NCBI RefSeq assembly: GCF_001984155.1 | Contig: NZ_MTQO01000053.1 | Span: 682,001-746,000 of the forward strand | Length of the DNA stretch: 64,000 bases | DNA from: Actinosynnema sp. ALI-1.44 | GTDB lineage: Bacteria; Actinomycetota; Actinomycetes; Mycobacteriales; Pseudonocardiaceae | Direction of reading: 5' to 3' | Shown: positions 18,008-32,990 of the stretch, in pieces | Position numbering within the stretch: the stretch's first letter is position 1 | Layout of the letters: the number at the start of each line of letters is the position of its first letter | Notes under the pieces: generated by a model | Told to the model about the DNA's origin: nothing | What the model saw: the letters and a program-made list of their open reading frames with translations, nothing else | Databases searched by the model: none | Position numbers and translations under genes: made by a program

Positions 18008-18216
18008 TGACTCAAAACACCCTGACGCGGATCGCCGAACGCGCCCCGCAGTCACATCGCCGGATGAAACCCTAGCTTCGCGGACGCCGCCCGGAAAGGC
18101 GGATCTCATTGTGCGGCCCCGGTGTGTCCATTCGGCGACGATCACGGTGCGTCGCATTCACCGAACTGGGTGATCCTTCTAGTGCGACTGGGCGAGTGCG
18201 CCGATATCCGGCCACT

Positions 18217-19350
18217 GTGTCCTTCGTGGACACTCAACGTGCGATGCGGCTGTCCGAATGGGTGAGCCGATGGCAATGGCGCATGCCGGACCTGGTCTTG
18301 CACGATCCAGACGGGCCGAGGGAATGCCTTGTCCGTGCGGGGCAATTGGTTGTCGGACCGGACGCGGTCCAACCGGTCTCCGACGAACTGCGCCGGTGGG
18401 TCGACCGTATTGACCCAAGCGGACGCATCATCCTCCGCGACGAATTGCGCGACCGCCCCGTCGAAGTCGCCGCGGACATCACCGACCGCTGGCCCGCGGC
18501 CCCCAACCACGTGCACATCGGTACCCCGATCATGCTCGGCACCCCGACGTGGATCGGCGGACCGGAGATCCTCGACATCCCGGGGCCCCGGCCACCCGAA
18601 CCGGAAACCTGGGACCCACCGGTCACCGTCGCGGTGCTCGACACCGGCCTCGACCCACACCCGTGGTTCGCCGCGCGCCCGTGGCTCACCGAATGGGGCC
18701 TGCACCCCGAAGTACTCGACCACGACATCGACGGCACCCCCGACTGGCAGGCCGGACACGGCACCTTCGTGGCGGGCGTCCTGATCAGCAACGCCCCCGG
18801 CGTGACAATCCGCCACCACAGAGTCCTGTCCTCCATGGGCCTCACCGACGACACGACGGTGGCCGCGGCGATCCGGGCAACCCGCGCCCGAGGCCACATC
18901 GACATCACCTTGATCACCTCAGGCTGCTACACCGCCGACAACCGCTGCCCGCCCACCCTCGAACACGAACTCACCCAAGGCGACACGGTGGTAGTCGCCG
19001 CCGCGGGCAACGGCGGCAGCAGCAGGCCATTCTGGCCCGCCGCCCTCGACACGGCTGTAGCCGTCGCAGCCACCGACGAAACCGGCACAATCGCGGCATT
19101 CTCCAACCGGGGACCCTGGGTGAACGCCACGGCGCCCGGCGTCGACGTCACATCCAGTCACGTACGCCTGAAAACGGGCACGGAAGGTGTCGCCCCCGGC
19201 ACCGAAGCCCGCGAATACGGCGTGGCCCGCTGGAGCGGAACCTCCTTCGCAGCCCCAAAAATAGCCGCCGACCTGGCAAACCTCATGCGCGAAGGACACA
19301 CCCCAGACCAAGCCCTCGCAACTCATTCACTCGGACAGCCAACATTGTGA
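18217..19350 (+). CDS. Cytoplasmic subtilisin-like serine protease (S8 family)
   Basis: About 377 residues. The S8 triad is complete: Asp in VAVLDTGLD, His in AGHGTFVAG and Ser in SGTSFAAPK, with the oxyanion Asn in AAAGNGG. No signal peptide or propeptide-like inhibitor I9 domain is visible. Instead a 100-residue N-terminal region (starting near RLSEWVSRWQWRMPDL) precedes the protease domain. The GTG at 18217 is preceded 6 bases away by TATCCG; an ATG at 18244 is the alternative. The gene lies directly upstream of the hairpin-rich gap and the sigma-CHAT pair. An intracellular S8 protease next to another protease suggests a regulated-proteolysis locus, but this is inference. Confidence 0.82.
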   Translation: MSFVDTQRAMRLSEWVSRWQWRMPDLVLHDPDGPRECLVRAGQLVVGPDAVQPVSDELRRWVDRIDPSGRIILRDELRDRPVEVAADITDRWPAAPNHVHIGTPIMLGTPTWIGGPEILDIPGPRPPEPETWDPPVTVAVLDTGLDPHPWFAARPWLTEWGLHPEVLDHDIDGTPDWQAGHGTFVAGVLISNAPGVTIRHHRVLSSMGLTDDTTVAAAIRATRARGHIDITLITSGCYTADNRCPPTLEHELTQGDTVVVAAAGNGGSSRPFWPAALDTAVAVAATDETGTIAAFSNRGPWVNATAPGVDVTSSHVRLKTGTEGVAPGTEAREYGVARWSGTSFAAPKIAADLANLMREGHTPDQALATHSLGQPTL

Positions 19351-19435
19351 ACGCGATTTAGCAACGACCACTGGCACGCACAGTCGCGGACGCGCTACTC
19401 TATGGAGGCTCGCCCCCTCCCCCTCGGCGAGCCAA

Positions 19436-19480
19436 ACGTCCCCGCTCCCCGGGACCCCCAGCCGGGTCGAGCGGGGACGT
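19436..19480. repeat. Long hairpin, 12-bp outer stem plus inner stem
   Basis: ACGTCCCCGCTC (19436-19447) pairs perfectly with GAGCGGGGACGT (19469-19480). Inside, CCCGG pairs with CCGGG around a 9-base loop. It lies 86 bases after the subtilase stop and could terminate that gene. Confidence 0.85.
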
Positions 19481-19545
19481 CCTATCGCTCCAGAGCCTTG
19501 GTCGCTCGCTTCCCTCGCTTCCCTCGGCTCTGGACTTCTCCTTTG

Positions 19546-19566
19546 TTGGGGGGCCGAGCCCCCCAA
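19546..19566. terminator. GC hairpin, terminator-like
   Basis: TTGGGGGG and CCCCCCAA form an 8-bp perfect stem around a 5-base loop (CCGAG). Its six consecutive G-C pairs make it the most stable compact hairpin of this gap. It may be a terminator or a repeated extragenic element. Confidence 0.65.
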
Positions 19567-19626
19567 ACCCCCCACGGTGCGAGCTCCTTCCGATCCAGCG
19601 CTGGGTACTTTCCGCTTGGACCAGCG

Positions 19627-19678
19627 GGGCGGCTTCGCCGCCCTTGCAGGCGCCTGCGCAGGGCAGGCGGCCCTGCGC
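19627..19678. repeat. Three consecutive perfect inverted repeats
   Basis: Nearly end to end lie GGGCGGC/GCCGCCC (19627-19643, 3-base loop), the 12-base palindrome GCAGGCGCCTGC (19646-19657), and GCGCAGGGC/GCCCTGCGC (19656-19678, 5-base loop). Confidence 0.8.
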
Positions 19679-19707
19679 GCAAGCGCAGAGATGGGCTTCG
19701 GGGGTGT

Positions 19708-19839
19708 CTCCTGCCCGTCGGCCTGGGCGAAGCCAACCACGGGCTGTCAAGAGGTCGGCCTACCCGAAGAGCCCCAGCGACAGCCATACCGATCCTCTTG
19801 ACAGTCCGTGGTTCCCTGGGGCAGGTCGACGGGCAGGAG
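19708..19839. repeat. 132-base nested inverted repeat
   Basis: Outer arms CTCCTGCCCGTCG (19708-19720) and CGACGGGCAGGAG (19827-19839) pair over 13 bp. Inner arms of 20 bases (19735-19754 and 19794-19813) pair at 19 of 20 positions around a 39-base loop. A CCTG/CAGG pair also fits in the intervening segment. The whole would fold as one long interrupted stem. Confidence 0.85.
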
Positions 19840-20178
19840 GCGCCCGCGCCTCACAACCCCGGGTCATAAAAGCATGCGCTGGGAAGAACGCGGCGCGAAG
19901 ACCTCCTGCCCAGAGGTCTGCCACCCGGCGAGGGACCCTCTTTTGTCTTGAGGGAACAAAACCCCGACCTCAACCCGACAAGCGCAGCCCAGAAACCCCC
20001 ACGCCTTTCTTGAACCAAGATATTCATGCCCGGATTGAGCCGGGATGTGTCAAATCGAGGACGCCAGGACGAATGCCGTCAAGACGAGCGAAATTAGCTG
20101 TCCGTAACCGGGTTCACTCTAGTGGGTGGGATTGGAAAATTTTGGAGCGTGTTGCCGGTCGGGGGCGTCTGAGCTGGC

Positions 20179-20994
20179 ATGGAGGCGCTTGATGAACAGG
20201 GTTGGCGGGAGCTTGTCGTTGCGCATGGGCCTACCGTTTGGGCTGTTGCACGGGCTTTTCGGCTCAGTGCTGCCGATGCCGATGATGTTTTTCAGACCGT
20301 TTGGCTCAATCTCGCCGAGCACCTCGGGGACATTCGGGATGCTGGGAAGGTTTCGGCTTGGTTGGCCACCGCTGCCAAGTGGGAATGCCTTCGAGTTCTG
20401 ACCGTCCGGCGGCCTTTGCCTGTTCGGTGGTTGCCGGACGTCGCGCAGGACGGGATTGAGCACCGCGTCATCGCCGAGGAGCGGGATCGGCAGCTGTGGG
20501 CCGCTTTCGAGGCGTTGCCCGAGCGGTGCCGGCGGCTTCTTCGGCTGTTCGTCCACGTTCCCGAATTCACCTATGCGCAACTCGCCGATGCGGTCGGTCT
20601 CCCGGTCGGCAGCGTCGGGCAGACCAAGACCCGGTGCTTGCGGTCGCTGCGGGTCAAGCTGGACAGGTCTCTTTTCGGCCGGGTCGATCCCATGCCGGAC
20701 GTGATCGCCGTGCCTCGGGCGCACCCCGTCCCGAGGCTGCGGACCCAGACCGCGGTGCTGACCAGGAACGAGCCGTCCACGTTGCGGTTCGCCGATCACC
20801 GGTACACCGTTCACGTGGAGATCGGGACCGCGTTGACCGGGATCGTGCTGCCTCGCGTGGATGTCCAGGTGTGGTGGCCCGACGGGATGATCAGCGTCGA
20901 CGTCGACCGCAACGGGCTGTTCAAGGCCGACGTGCCGCAAGGACCGGTCCGGTTGTCGGTCGACGGAGTGGTCACGGACTGGTTCGTCCGATGA
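20179..20994 (+). CDS. ECF-type sigma factor with a fused beta-rich C-terminal domain
   Basis: 271 residues. Residues about 8-75 form sigma region 2 (AFRLSAADADDVFQTVWLNL, with the usual Asp-rich core-binding helix). Residues about 100-160 form sigma region 4 with the helix-turn-helix FTYAQLADAVGLPVGSVGQTKTR. The remaining 110 residues are not sigma. They form a predicted beta-rich domain with the pattern VHVEIGTALTG, VQVWWPDGMISVDVDRNGLF and GPVRLSVDG. I recall this domain as a separate small protein encoded between an ECF sigma gene and a CHAT gene in other actinobacteria; here it is fused. The stop overlaps the CHAT start (ATGA). No anti-sigma gene is adjacent. Confidence 0.83.
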   Translation: MEALDEQGWRELVVAHGPTVWAVARAFRLSAADADDVFQTVWLNLAEHLGDIRDAGKVSAWLATAAKWECLRVLTVRRPLPVRWLPDVAQDGIEHRVIAEERDRQLWAAFEALPERCRRLLRLFVHVPEFTYAQLADAVGLPVGSVGQTKTRCLRSLRVKLDRSLFGRVDPMPDVIAVPRAHPVPRLRTQTAVLTRNEPSTLRFADHRYTVHVEIGTALTGIVLPRVDVQVWWPDGMISVDVDRNGLFKADVPQGPVRLSVDGVVTDWFVR

Positions 20995-23117
20995 GCCACG
21001 CCCAGGCGCTCGAAGCGGTCGAGCGCGGTGACTTCGTCCGGGCGCTGGCCGAGGCCCGCACCGCGCTCGCCCGGCCTGGCGCCGATTTCGGGCAGGTCCA
21101 CCTGACGATCGCGTGGATCGAGCTGGAACGGGGCAACGCCCGCGCCTGTGCCAGTGAGCTGCGCAGGGCGGCGGAAAACGGTGCCGCGTCGGGCCGGGTG
21201 CGATGCCTTGACGGTCTGCGGCTCTGCGCGATCGGCGCTTATGAGCGAGCCGTGGCGGAACTGTCGGTGGCCATGGAAGCTCTGCGTGAGGATCCGCGAT
21301 GGTTGGCGAACGCGTTGACCGGCCGGGGAATCGCGCGCGGCTATCTGTTCAGGCTCGCGGCGGCCGATCGTGATTTCGCCGCCGCGGCGCGGGTTCTGGG
21401 TCAGTTGGACGAGCACGAGCGGGTGGCGACGTGTGTTCACAACCGTGGTTTCGTCGCACTCCAGGCCGGAAACCTGCCGAAAGCGTTGGAATTGTTCGAG
21501 CAGGCGAGCAGTGGACTGCGGTGCGGCCGTGCCGAGGCGTTGATCGACCACGCGTCGGCGTTGCTCGCGGCGGGGATGACCCGTGACGCGAGTGCCCTTC
21601 TCGCCCAGGCGGAACCTTTGCTGGTTGGGCGGGAGAGCCGCCTGGCGGAAGCTGTGCTGGCAGCTGGGTACTGCGCGTTGCGAGCGGGCGATGTCGATCA
21701 CGCGGCCAGCGAAGCCAAACGGGCGCAGGACCTTTTCCGGACCCAGCGCAGGCCCGCCTGGACGGCGGCAGCGGACGCGTTGGCGTTGCGGACAGACGTG
21801 ATCGACGTGGCCGCGGCGAAACGTGTGGCGAACCGGTGCGTGCGCTGGGGAAAACGGACGGAAGCGGCGGAGTTGTTGCTGGCGGCCGGGAAACAGGCGC
21901 CCGAGTTGCTGGTCGAGCTCCAGGCCGAGCGCACCGCCAACACCGCGCGGTTGCGTGCGATCGGCTGGCTGGCCAGAGCGAAGTCGGCCACCACGAACCA
22001 GGCGCGCATCGCCGCCTGTCACGCGGGCATGCGTGTGGTCACCGGGTACGCGACGGTGATGGGCGCGGGTGCGCGGGAACTGGCGGCCGAACTGGCATCG
22101 GTGGCCATCAGGCACACCCGTCGTGCGCGGACGGTGTTCGCCTGGATCGAACGGCAGAGGATAACGGTGTTGCCGTTGGTGGACACGGCCGATCTGGTCC
22201 AGCTCAGGGCCGCCGAGGCGCAGGGTGACGTGACCAAGGCCGTTCGTCTGGAAGACCGGATTCGCCGCCGCGCTCGGGTCACGCGCCACGAGTACGGGTT
22301 GGCGGCGCTCACCGAAACGCTCGGTGACCGGATGCTCGTCAGCTACTCGTCGCACAACAACGAACTGCTCGCATGCACGGTCGCCGACGGGCGGATGCGG
22401 GTTCACCATCTCGGTCCGCTCGACCCGGTTGCCATGAGGTTTTCCGCGCAGTTGGGCGATCAGTTGGACAACCAGATCATCGCGCCTCTGCGCGTCGGTG
22501 ACCGTTCGCTCGTTGTCATTCCGGCCGAGGGTATGTCCGGGATGGTGTGGGGAGCGCTGCCGTCGTGTGCCGGGCGTCCGATGTCGTTGGCGTCGTCGGT
22601 CGCGGCTTGGGTACGGGCCAGCCGATCCCGGCCAGGGCAAGGGGTGTTCGCCGCTGCCGGGCCCGGATTGGCCCATGCCACTCGTGAGGTCGCCGCCATC
22701 GGGTTCACCCGGGTCGAGTCCGAAGTGGATGCCGTGCTCGGTGCGATGGACGGTGCTGATGTCGTGCACATCGCCGCGCACGGGAAGTTCCGGCACGACG
22801 CGCCGATGTTCTCGTGCCTACGGCTGTCCGACGGGCCGCTCTACGGCTACGACCTCGCCCGGCTCACCCGTGCACCCAGGGTCCTCGTCCTGTCCGCGTG
22901 CGAGGTGGCCAGGGCGGAGGTCTTCGCCGATGTCCTGCTCGACCGCGGCGGTCAGGTGCTGATCGCGAGCACCGTCGCGGTTCCCGACGAGGCCGCCGCC
23001 GACCTCATGACCGGGTTCCACCGGCTGCTCGACGCCGGTGCGGCGCCCGCCGACGCGTTGGCGGGCGCGCAGCGCCGGTACGGGCACCTCGGGTTCAGCT
23101 GCTGGGGTTCGGGTTGA
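20991..23117 (+). CDS. TPR-CHAT protein, caspase-like cysteine protease
   Basis: 708 residues. The first 430 or so are alpha-helical with tetratricopeptide-like repeats (GNLPKALELFEQASS, RGNARACASELRRAAEN). The C-terminal 265 residues are a CHAT domain, with the His of DVVHIAAHGKF at about residue 597 and the Cys of VLVLSACEV at about 637 as the expected dyad. No signal peptide or membrane helix, so it is cytoplasmic. CHAT domains are clan CD proteases often switched on by a sensor through their TPR region. It is translationally coupled to the sigma factor, making that protein the first candidate substrate (inference). The 3' end overlaps the convergent aminotransferase gene by 23 bases. Confidence 0.88.
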   Translation: MSHAQALEAVERGDFVRALAEARTALARPGADFGQVHLTIAWIELERGNARACASELRRAAENGAASGRVRCLDGLRLCAIGAYERAVAELSVAMEALREDPRWLANALTGRGIARGYLFRLAAADRDFAAAARVLGQLDEHERVATCVHNRGFVALQAGNLPKALELFEQASSGLRCGRAEALIDHASALLAAGMTRDASALLAQAEPLLVGRESRLAEAVLAAGYCALRAGDVDHAASEAKRAQDLFRTQRRPAWTAAADALALRTDVIDVAAAKRVANRCVRWGKRTEAAELLLAAGKQAPELLVELQAERTANTARLRAIGWLARAKSATTNQARIAACHAGMRVVTGYATVMGAGARELAAELASVAIRHTRRARTVFAWIERQRITVLPLVDTADLVQLRAAEAQGDVTKAVRLEDRIRRRARVTRHEYGLAALTETLGDRMLVSYSSHNNELLACTVADGRMRVHHLGPLDPVAMRFSAQLGDQLDNQIIAPLRVGDRSLVVIPAEGMSGMVWGALPSCAGRPMSLASSVAAWVRASRSRPGQGVFAAAGPGLAHATREVAAIGFTRVESEVDAVLGAMDGADVVHIAAHGKFRHDAPMFSCLRLSDGPLYGYDLARLTRAPRVLVLSACEVARAEVFADVLLDRGGQVLIASTVAVPDEAAADLMTGFHRLLDAGAAPADALAGAQRRYGHLGFSCWGSG

Positions 23118-32600: not shown

Positions 32601-32990
32601 GTGATTTGCCCGAAGTGTCAGAACATGATGCAGACCGTCGATCGTGGTGGCGTCCACATCGACCAGTGCCAGGGCTGCCGGGGGATCTTCCTCGACCGCG
32701 GTGAGCTGGAGCAGATAGCGAACGCGGAGCAGCGTTACCAGCAGCAGTACGCTCCGCCGCCGATGGCTCCGCCGGCCATGTACCGCGGTGACTCGGCTCC
32801 GCCCTACCGCGGCGGCCACAAGGACTCGGCGCCCCCGTACCGCGGCGGTCACGGCGGCTACAAGGACTCGGCCCCGCCCTATGGCGGCGGTTACGGCCAC
32901 CGCGGCGACTCGCCCCCGCCGTACGGCGGTCACGGCGGCTACGGCCACAAGCGCAAGCGGAAGAGCTTCCTGGAAGAGCTGTTCGACTGA
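32601..32990 (+). CDS. TFIIB-type zinc-ribbon protein with PPY-rich repeats
   Basis: 129 residues. The N-terminal zf-TFIIB domain has two CxxC knuckles, ICPKCQNMM and IDQCQGCRGIFLDRGELE, the standard signature. The rest is low complexity, built from repeats of the type DSAPPYRGG and GGYGH that occur four to five times, ending in a basic patch and FLEELFD. Such proteins are small and cytosolic with unknown function. The GTG at 32601 has TAGTCT 7 bases upstream and no Shine-Dalgarno, so leaderless. The P-loop kinase gene follows 11 bases later and is probably cotranscribed. Confidence 0.82.
   Translation: MICPKCQNMMQTVDRGGVHIDQCQGCRGIFLDRGELEQIANAEQRYQQQYAPPPMAPPAMYRGDSAPPYRGGHKDSAPPYRGGHGGYKDSAPPYGGGYGHRGDSPPPYGGHGGYGHKRKRKSFLEELFD

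Follow-up and report, generated by a model that had tools for sequence, protein, structure and literature searches.

For the sigma factors of group ECF54, which are of the extracytoplasmic function (ECF) type, proteolytic control has already been proposed from the neighbouring genes, which encode carboxypeptidase-domain proteins, subtilases and CHAT proteins, and the group is listed under proteolysis in Table 2 of that source (PMC8999054). In the type III-E CRISPR system (Craspase), the tetratricopeptide repeat (TPR)-CHAT protease Csx29 cuts Csx30, a protein which binds and blocks the ECF-type CASP-sigma (PMC10028731). A regulatory domain fused behind region 4 occurs in ECF41, ECF42, ECF56 and IutY, and IutY loses its fused anti-sigma part by proteolysis (PMC8999054). 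Here we analyse a window of 64,000 nucleotides from Actinosynnema sp. ALI-1.44 (contig NZ_MTQO01000053.1, positions 682,001 to 746,000), in which a gene for an ECF sigma factor is fused to a C-terminal β-type domain and is followed directly by the gene for a TPR-CHAT protease.

Widespread among actinobacteria is a four-part module in which an ECF sigma factor goes with a small protein, a TPR-CHAT protease and an S8 subtilase; the locus carries its fused form. The fused sigma gene and the CHAT gene have the following features:

20179..20994, plus strand: ECF sigma factor fused to a C-terminal β-type domain, 271 residues (open reading frame and Pfam)
20212..20400, plus strand: sigma region 2, residues 12–74 (PF04542, Sigma70_r2, E 4e-10)
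20503..20652, plus strand: sigma region 4, residues 109–158 (PF04545, Sigma70_r4, E 1e-5)
20686..20697, plus strand: DPMP, residues 170–173, a D-P-x-P motif that ends the N-terminal segment of the small protein (family alignment)
20764..20766, plus strand: Arg196 in the linker (T195-R196-N197), candidate processing or recognition site (family alignment)
20791..20991, plus strand: C-terminal domain proper, residues about 205–271 (alignments A2 and A4; purifying selection)
20991..23117, plus strand: TPR-CHAT protease gene, 708 residues (open reading frame and Pfam), start overlapping the sigma stop by 4 nt
22698..23081, plus strand: CHAT domain, residues 570–697 (PF12770, E 5e-20)
22779..22781, plus strand: His597 of the catalytic dyad, invariant in 17/17
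22899..22901, plus strand: Cys637 of the catalytic dyad, invariant in 17/17

A sequence-only reading of this DNA had described a protein with sigma regions 2 and 4 and about 110 extra C-terminal residues, whose stop codon runs into the start of the gene for a TPR-CHAT protein of 708 residues that has an intact His/Cys dyad and Cys637 as the catalytic Cys. The present data bear this out. Both sigma regions are matched by Pfam and the open reading frame has 107 residues beyond them; the TGA stop and the CHAT start overlap as ATGA at 20991–20994; and the two residues of the dyad are invariant in the aligned CHAT proteins, the window's own being one of the 17. The CHAT profile score is 72.7 bits against a curated cut-off of 24, and a TPR_12 match at residues 105–174 (E 3e-5) is below its curated cut-off. 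The whole genome, of the genus Kibdelosporangium and 11.7 Mb in size, has 14 CHAT matches, so that a CHAT within 7 kb is expected by chance at about 2% of places.

The gene set of the module matches the published ECF54 context, in which an ECF sigma factor has no classical anti-sigma gene and a CHAT protein and a subtilase, both found here, are encoded nearby; the likeness is one of gene context. The portion of PMC8999054 available to us describes neither a fused regulatory domain nor a cut site for ECF54. The sequence-only reading had suggested a stand-alone, protease-gated sigma system. This is reasonable, but the idea is not new, control by proteolysis having been proposed for ECF54 before (PMC8999054).

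As in the type III-E Craspase, an ECF-type sigma factor and its protein partner are encoded next to a TPR-CHAT protease, and the window CHAT matches by sequence the Csx29 chain 7y9x (E 2e-7) and the chain 7x8a (E 2e-8; aligned Cys at 627, as in the Scalindua protein). The partner, however, has about 110–180 residues here, whereas residue numbers in PMC10028731 imply more than 500 for Csx30. The surrounding DNA also differs. As the sequence-only reading had noted, no CRISPR array or anti-sigma gene is near: between 10 and 34 kb of the window there are no CRISPR-like repeats and only two direct-repeat families (four overlapping 49-nt copies at 32780–32942, and one two-copy match), and Pfam found neither an anti-sigma nor a Cas domain in ten neighbouring proteins, the rest of the genome not having been searched for Cas or CRISPR. 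From ECF41, ECF42, ECF56 and IutY the fused protein differs in its extension, which is immunoglobulin (Ig)-like or CarboxypepD_reg-like and not SnoaL, TPR or a membrane anti-sigma, and in the overlap of a protease gene with the sigma gene. Systems of an EACC2-caspase with an ECF sigma factor have another architecture (EACC2, DUF1822), and the part of the source available to us describes no subtilase or small β-type partner for them (PMC8195603).

The distribution of the module was analysed by profile searches, and the family matches and named loci were classed by six-frame profile search. Searched with the C-terminal domain profile (A2), 61 of the family's 249 genomes gave matches, at 69 places. 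All 69 were classified and all adjoin a sigma gene; 62 are separate genes and seven are fused. A sigma profile gave at least 455 confirmed relatives, of which the best 80 were kept as named loci. In these best 80 the small protein is separate in 76, fused in one (Kibdelosporangium banguiense) and absent in three, while CHAT is present in 65, S8 in 62 and both in 58. The named loci are from Lentzea, Actinokineospora, Saccharothrix, Saccharopolyspora, Amycolatopsis, Actinomadura, Dactylosporangium, Catellatospora, Micromonospora, Solirubrobacter and other genera. At class level, the small-protein profile (A8) detects the family in 130 of 394 genomes, and 100 loci obtained by this profile alone include 97 with a separate adjacent sigma gene and 82 with an intact CHAT. 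The statement in the sequence-only reading, that the domain is elsewhere a separate protein, in many loci between sigma and CHAT, proves right by both the family matches and the best 80 loci, and the profile search with the sigma C-terminus that it had suggested did find separate-gene homologues.

Among the 69, 80 and 100 loci examined, sets which overlap only within Kibdelosporangium, the fusion is restricted to this genus, and fusion outside it was rejected. One same-frame call from the last set (L331, genome G605) was judged by eye and not counted: the residues following region 2 are unlike region 4, and the small protein has an ATG of its own. The sigma frame in L331 seems to be shifted past region 2 into that of the small protein, by a frameshift, a broken gene or a sequence error. 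An orthologous locus, found by the sigma protein, is present in all eight Kibdelosporangium genomes and is fused in seven. The unfused genome (G007) has three genes with 4-nt overlaps, for a sigma factor of 177, a small protein of 113 and a TPR-CHAT protein of 656 residues, and they adjoin the same aminotransferase gene as in the rest of the genus. One change within Kibdelosporangium is enough to explain the fusion on the sigma tree, although the support is modest (61/72; 65% of bootstrap trees).

The small protein is likely to be a direct partner of the sigma factor, because the two are fused in one lineage while separate elsewhere, which is a known sign of direct partnership. In the fused proteins the C-terminal domain is under purifying selection, like the sigma part. 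For 5 of the 21 pairs that the seven fused orthologues can form, dN/dS was 0.17–0.28 for residues 205–271, a low value which shows this part to be constrained, against 0.10–0.26 for the sigma part and 0.20–1.29 for the linker. A chance reading frame or an artefact was rejected on the basis of this selection and of the orthologous locus in all eight genomes.

Members of the small-protein family have a common layout: the N-terminal segment ends in D-P-x-P (columns D 86%, P 94% and P 97% in the family alignment), the linker that follows varies in length, and the domain has a conserved G, D..G.F and W. In the window's domain, the residues conserved family-wide are G246, F248 and W268. The Pfam domain CarboxypepD_reg (PF13620) was matched in 8 of 27 family members, weakly in all (best E 0.008), and not in the window copy; a carboxypeptidase-domain protein is among the neighbours of ECF54 (PMC8999054). 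Against the PDB, the family profile matches 7dm0, a domain of a biofilm-associated surface protein (E 1.3e-6). We infer that the domain is probably Ig-like and non-enzymatic. The β character ascribed to it earlier is consistent with these matches of the family, although the window's own copy gave no CarboxypepD_reg match. The PDB also holds Csx30, and no chain of that name was among the three sequences matched by the partner-family profile at E up to 10.

A single residue stands out in the linker. The alignment has 66 rows, for 59 non-redundant separate proteins and the seven fused ones, and in 61 of them, 7/7 fused proteins included, the column of Arg196 is Arg; one row counted as Arg, L185:2231, is a protein of an injection-system operon and not a true member. 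The pattern [VTM]R[GSN], picked after the data were seen, is present in 46 of 64 linkers, where 5.8 would be expected (maximum 14 in 2000 shuffles). The Arg is followed by G, A or S in 92 of 99 proteins. Near-universality of the Arg was confirmed with the 100 loci of the class search as a hold-out, all of them less than 70% identical to the first set: 94 have it in the column and four more have it shifted by one column (V-R-S or V-R-G), giving 98/100. The linker thus holds a near-invariant Arg in an otherwise variable sequence. It looks like a linear motif and not like part of the fold, because its distances to the flanking elements vary (20–39 residues before it, and 5–11 after it to the next strand).

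The window's own genome has five places that match the small-protein profile, the window's included. Six Kibdelosporangium loci (L047, L049, L050, L054, L055 and L058) are paralogous pairs of a sigma factor and a small protein with no CHAT found nearby, and the linker of these small proteins still has V-R-G. In L142:7492-7671 (Actinophytocola algeriensis) only the N-terminal 59 residues of the small protein are present beside the sigma gene, and there is no CHAT nearby.

In the mechanism that we favour, the small protein would hold the sigma factor inactive. The analogy with Csx30, whose block on CASP-sigma lasts until it is cut by Csx29 (PMC10028731), makes this the most likely of its possible roles. 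The TPR part of the CHAT protein would sense a signal, and CHAT would then cut at or beside the linker Arg, in the window between R196 and N197. The cut would part the C-terminal domain from the sigma-bound portion and free or enable the sigma factor, which may transcribe its targets, perhaps its own module among them. In Kibdelosporangium the restraint would act in cis, which would make the sigma factor zymogen-like. We would give a little less than an even chance to this whole chain, from restraint and TPR sensing to the cut beside the Arg and the release that follows. A cut in the linker at about residues 165–200 had earlier been a guess; a conserved residue, R196, does lie inside this span, and the cut itself remains a prediction.

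The first set, for which CHAT and S8 calls cover the fetched flanks only and would miss genes farther out, connects the Arg with CHAT. Among its 104 small proteins the Arg is present in 82/82 with a catalytically intact CHAT and in 17/22 without. After dereplication at 70%, with flanks of at least 3.5 kb, the figures are 41/41 and 5/10 (Fisher p 1.1e-4, or 5.5e-4 when the truncated L142 is excluded). A tree of 49 sigma factors shows five losses of the Arg and ten of CHAT, and none of the five Arg losses is on a row with intact CHAT. Where the first set has a CHAT gene, the catalytic dyad is nearly always retained (89 of 90 loci).

Several results weigh against this reading. The p value of 1.1e-4 counts as not intact the CHAT gene of L210:7911-8804 (Saccharothrix luteola), where the linker Arg is lost; it was reclassed after sequence inspection because its CHAT is 297 residues long, without a TPR part, and has Asp for the catalytic His, and by CHAT presence the earlier p was 0.0023. 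The link with CHAT loss did not recur in the hold-out, where all 18 loci without intact CHAT within the fetched flanks keep the Arg and both loci that lack it (L345 and L346) have an intact CHAT. In the combined non-redundant table the Arg is found in 99/99 with CHAT and 15/20 without (p 8.5e-5), a link that rests on the first set, dereplication having dropped L345 and L346. Separase reads a P1 Arg through D2151, whose counterpart in the Scalindua TPR-CHAT protein is K670 (PMC9729208); aligned through K670, the position is Ala670 in the window CHAT, so that an Arg-specific CHAT is not supported by this separase-type marker. The nearby D666 says nothing special, because it is common to all 19 aligned CHAT domains, including other CHATs of the same genome. 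Further, Craspases cut Csx30 at unconserved sites (PMC11106740); conservation of the site is therefore not required of such proteases, which is a difference from the conserved linker Arg of the present family.

Some of the same data would suit docking without cutting, in which the C-terminal domain or small protein tethers the sigma factor to TPR-CHAT, the Arg and a domain Asp (D243) are contacts, and release or a change of shape is the signal. Of 15 conserved columns tested in the first set, it was these two residues that were lost preferentially without intact CHAT, which an interface would fit as well as a cut site, and the separase residue for P1 Arg is missing in the window CHAT. On the other hand, indels on both sides of the Arg and its variable distance to the fold would be unusual for a rigid contact, and neither the small residue that follows the Arg nor the retention of the catalytic dyad is what docking would lead one to expect. 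The Asp as a second CHAT-linked residue is weakened besides: it is missing in four CHAT-intact loci of the 104 small proteins, among them L162 and L179 of Amycolatopsis, both hidden by dereplication. We consider docking unlikely.

Cutting at the Arg could be the work of another protease. The third partner of the module, absent from the sequence-only reading, lies directly upstream of the sigma gene on the same strand, about 0.8 kb away:

18244..19350, plus strand: S8 subtilase, 368 residues from ATG (PF00082, E 2e-23)

Its start is uncertain, as the open frame begins with TTG at 18109; family searches used 18205–19347. The Arg tracks S8 in the first set too, and this is a further point against CHAT as the cutter: it is present in 35/35 non-redundant loci with S8 and 11/16 without (p 0.002), and in all first-set small proteins in 77/77 and 22/27 (p 0.0009). 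For this reason the subtilase could be the cutting enzyme of the linker, and the idea that the Arg is kept solely because of CHAT is weakened by both the hold-out and the S8 link. In a fuller version of this alternative, it is the subtilase that acts on the sigma factor or its partner, by processing or degradation; CHAT has some other substrate, which may be the subtilase, and proteolysis may keep the system off. The frequency of S8 in the best 80 named loci agrees with such a role, and subtilases are named among the peptidases of proteolysis-regulated sigma factors (PMC8999054).

The effects of CHAT and S8 are not cleanly separated, as all five Arg-less first-set loci have neither an intact CHAT nor an S8 nearby and CHAT-less loci with S8 keep the Arg. 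Among S8-less loci, the Arg still goes with CHAT: it is present in 7/7 with CHAT and 4/9 without (p 0.034, non-redundant), and in 12/12 with CHAT when all are counted. Among CHAT-less loci it is present in 1/1 with S8 and 4/9 without (non-redundant), or in 7/7 and 10/15 in all 104 (p 0.13), so that S8 has no measurable effect there. Comparison of the two leans towards CHAT as the predicted cutting enzyme, and we regard the subtilase alternative as quite unlikely.

A role of the module in defence was also considered: it would be an anti-phage or suicide system, and the sigma factor would turn on a programme of defence or cell death. TPR-CHAT proteases serve the type III-E CRISPR systems (PMC10028731, PMC9729208), and in 7 of the 180 loci of the two sets the genes that come after CHAT belong to a contractile injection system. 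The PADLOC matches, however, are generic or weak (S8 to ‘subtilase’, E 5e-13, and IetS, E 6e-5; CHAT to BovA, E 7e-5), with nothing for the sigma protein. Moreover, in several genera the module occupies the same chromosomal neighbourhood beside the same aminotransferase gene, and no changing island. Such a role is very improbable.

The seven injection-system loci (L172, L180, L182, L185, L187, L201 and L217) are from Allorhizocola, Catellatospora and Rhizocola; L180 and L182 look alike, being two contigs of C. tritici. In them CHAT heads a run of genes on one strand that continues into a protein of 179–231 residues, tail sheath and tube, and the S8, sigma and small-protein genes are divergent. 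The arrangement suggests that the module controls the contractile injection system in these seven loci.

Upstream of the sigma gene lies a palindromic element:

20114..20128, plus strand: dyad TCACTCTAGTGGGTG, candidate shared regulatory site, upstream of the sigma gene and conserved in the genus

A similar dyad is found at 18158–18173, before the subtilase ATG, and in a number of relatives the sigma and S8 genes are preceded by a palindrome close to TCACCCGATCGGGTGA. The palindromic motif in 113 upstream regions reached a log-likelihood of 166 against 18 for shuffled regions, a score inflated by closely related loci and compared with one simple shuffle with fewer search starts. Exact matches to TCACYCNNNYGGGTG number 33 in the own genome against five for the reversed pattern. 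The dyad did not lead to a regulon: 14 of 30 fetched sites are inside called genes, and no common function was seen among the genes that flank the other sites. Between the subtilase and sigma genes, positions 19400–19960 of the window are GC-rich and have no called gene.

In the literature searched we found no published description of a fused protein of a sigma factor and a CHAT partner. As far as searched, two things are new: the fusion as a sign that the two proteins are partners, and the conserved Arg in the small protein. The gene set, the fusion of sigma factor and small protein in Kibdelosporangium and the near-invariant linker Arg are observed directly. The wider proposal is of a CRISPR-free, caspase-family relay in which TPR-CHAT would cut a conserved Arg site in an ECF sigma partner across much of Actinomycetota, the Kibdelosporangium sigma factor being a zymogen freed at R196; we hold it to be possible, with the balance tilted clearly against it.

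Regulation of the ECF54 type has so far been a proposal from gene context (PMC8999054). The fusion is a direct tie between the sigma factor and the ‘carboxypeptidase-like’ small protein, and the conserved Arg offers a single residue to mutate. If CHAT cuts at this Arg, the relay of Csx29, Csx30 and sigma factor in CRISPR systems would be a special case of a commoner, CRISPR-free control of transcription by caspase-family proteases in bacteria.

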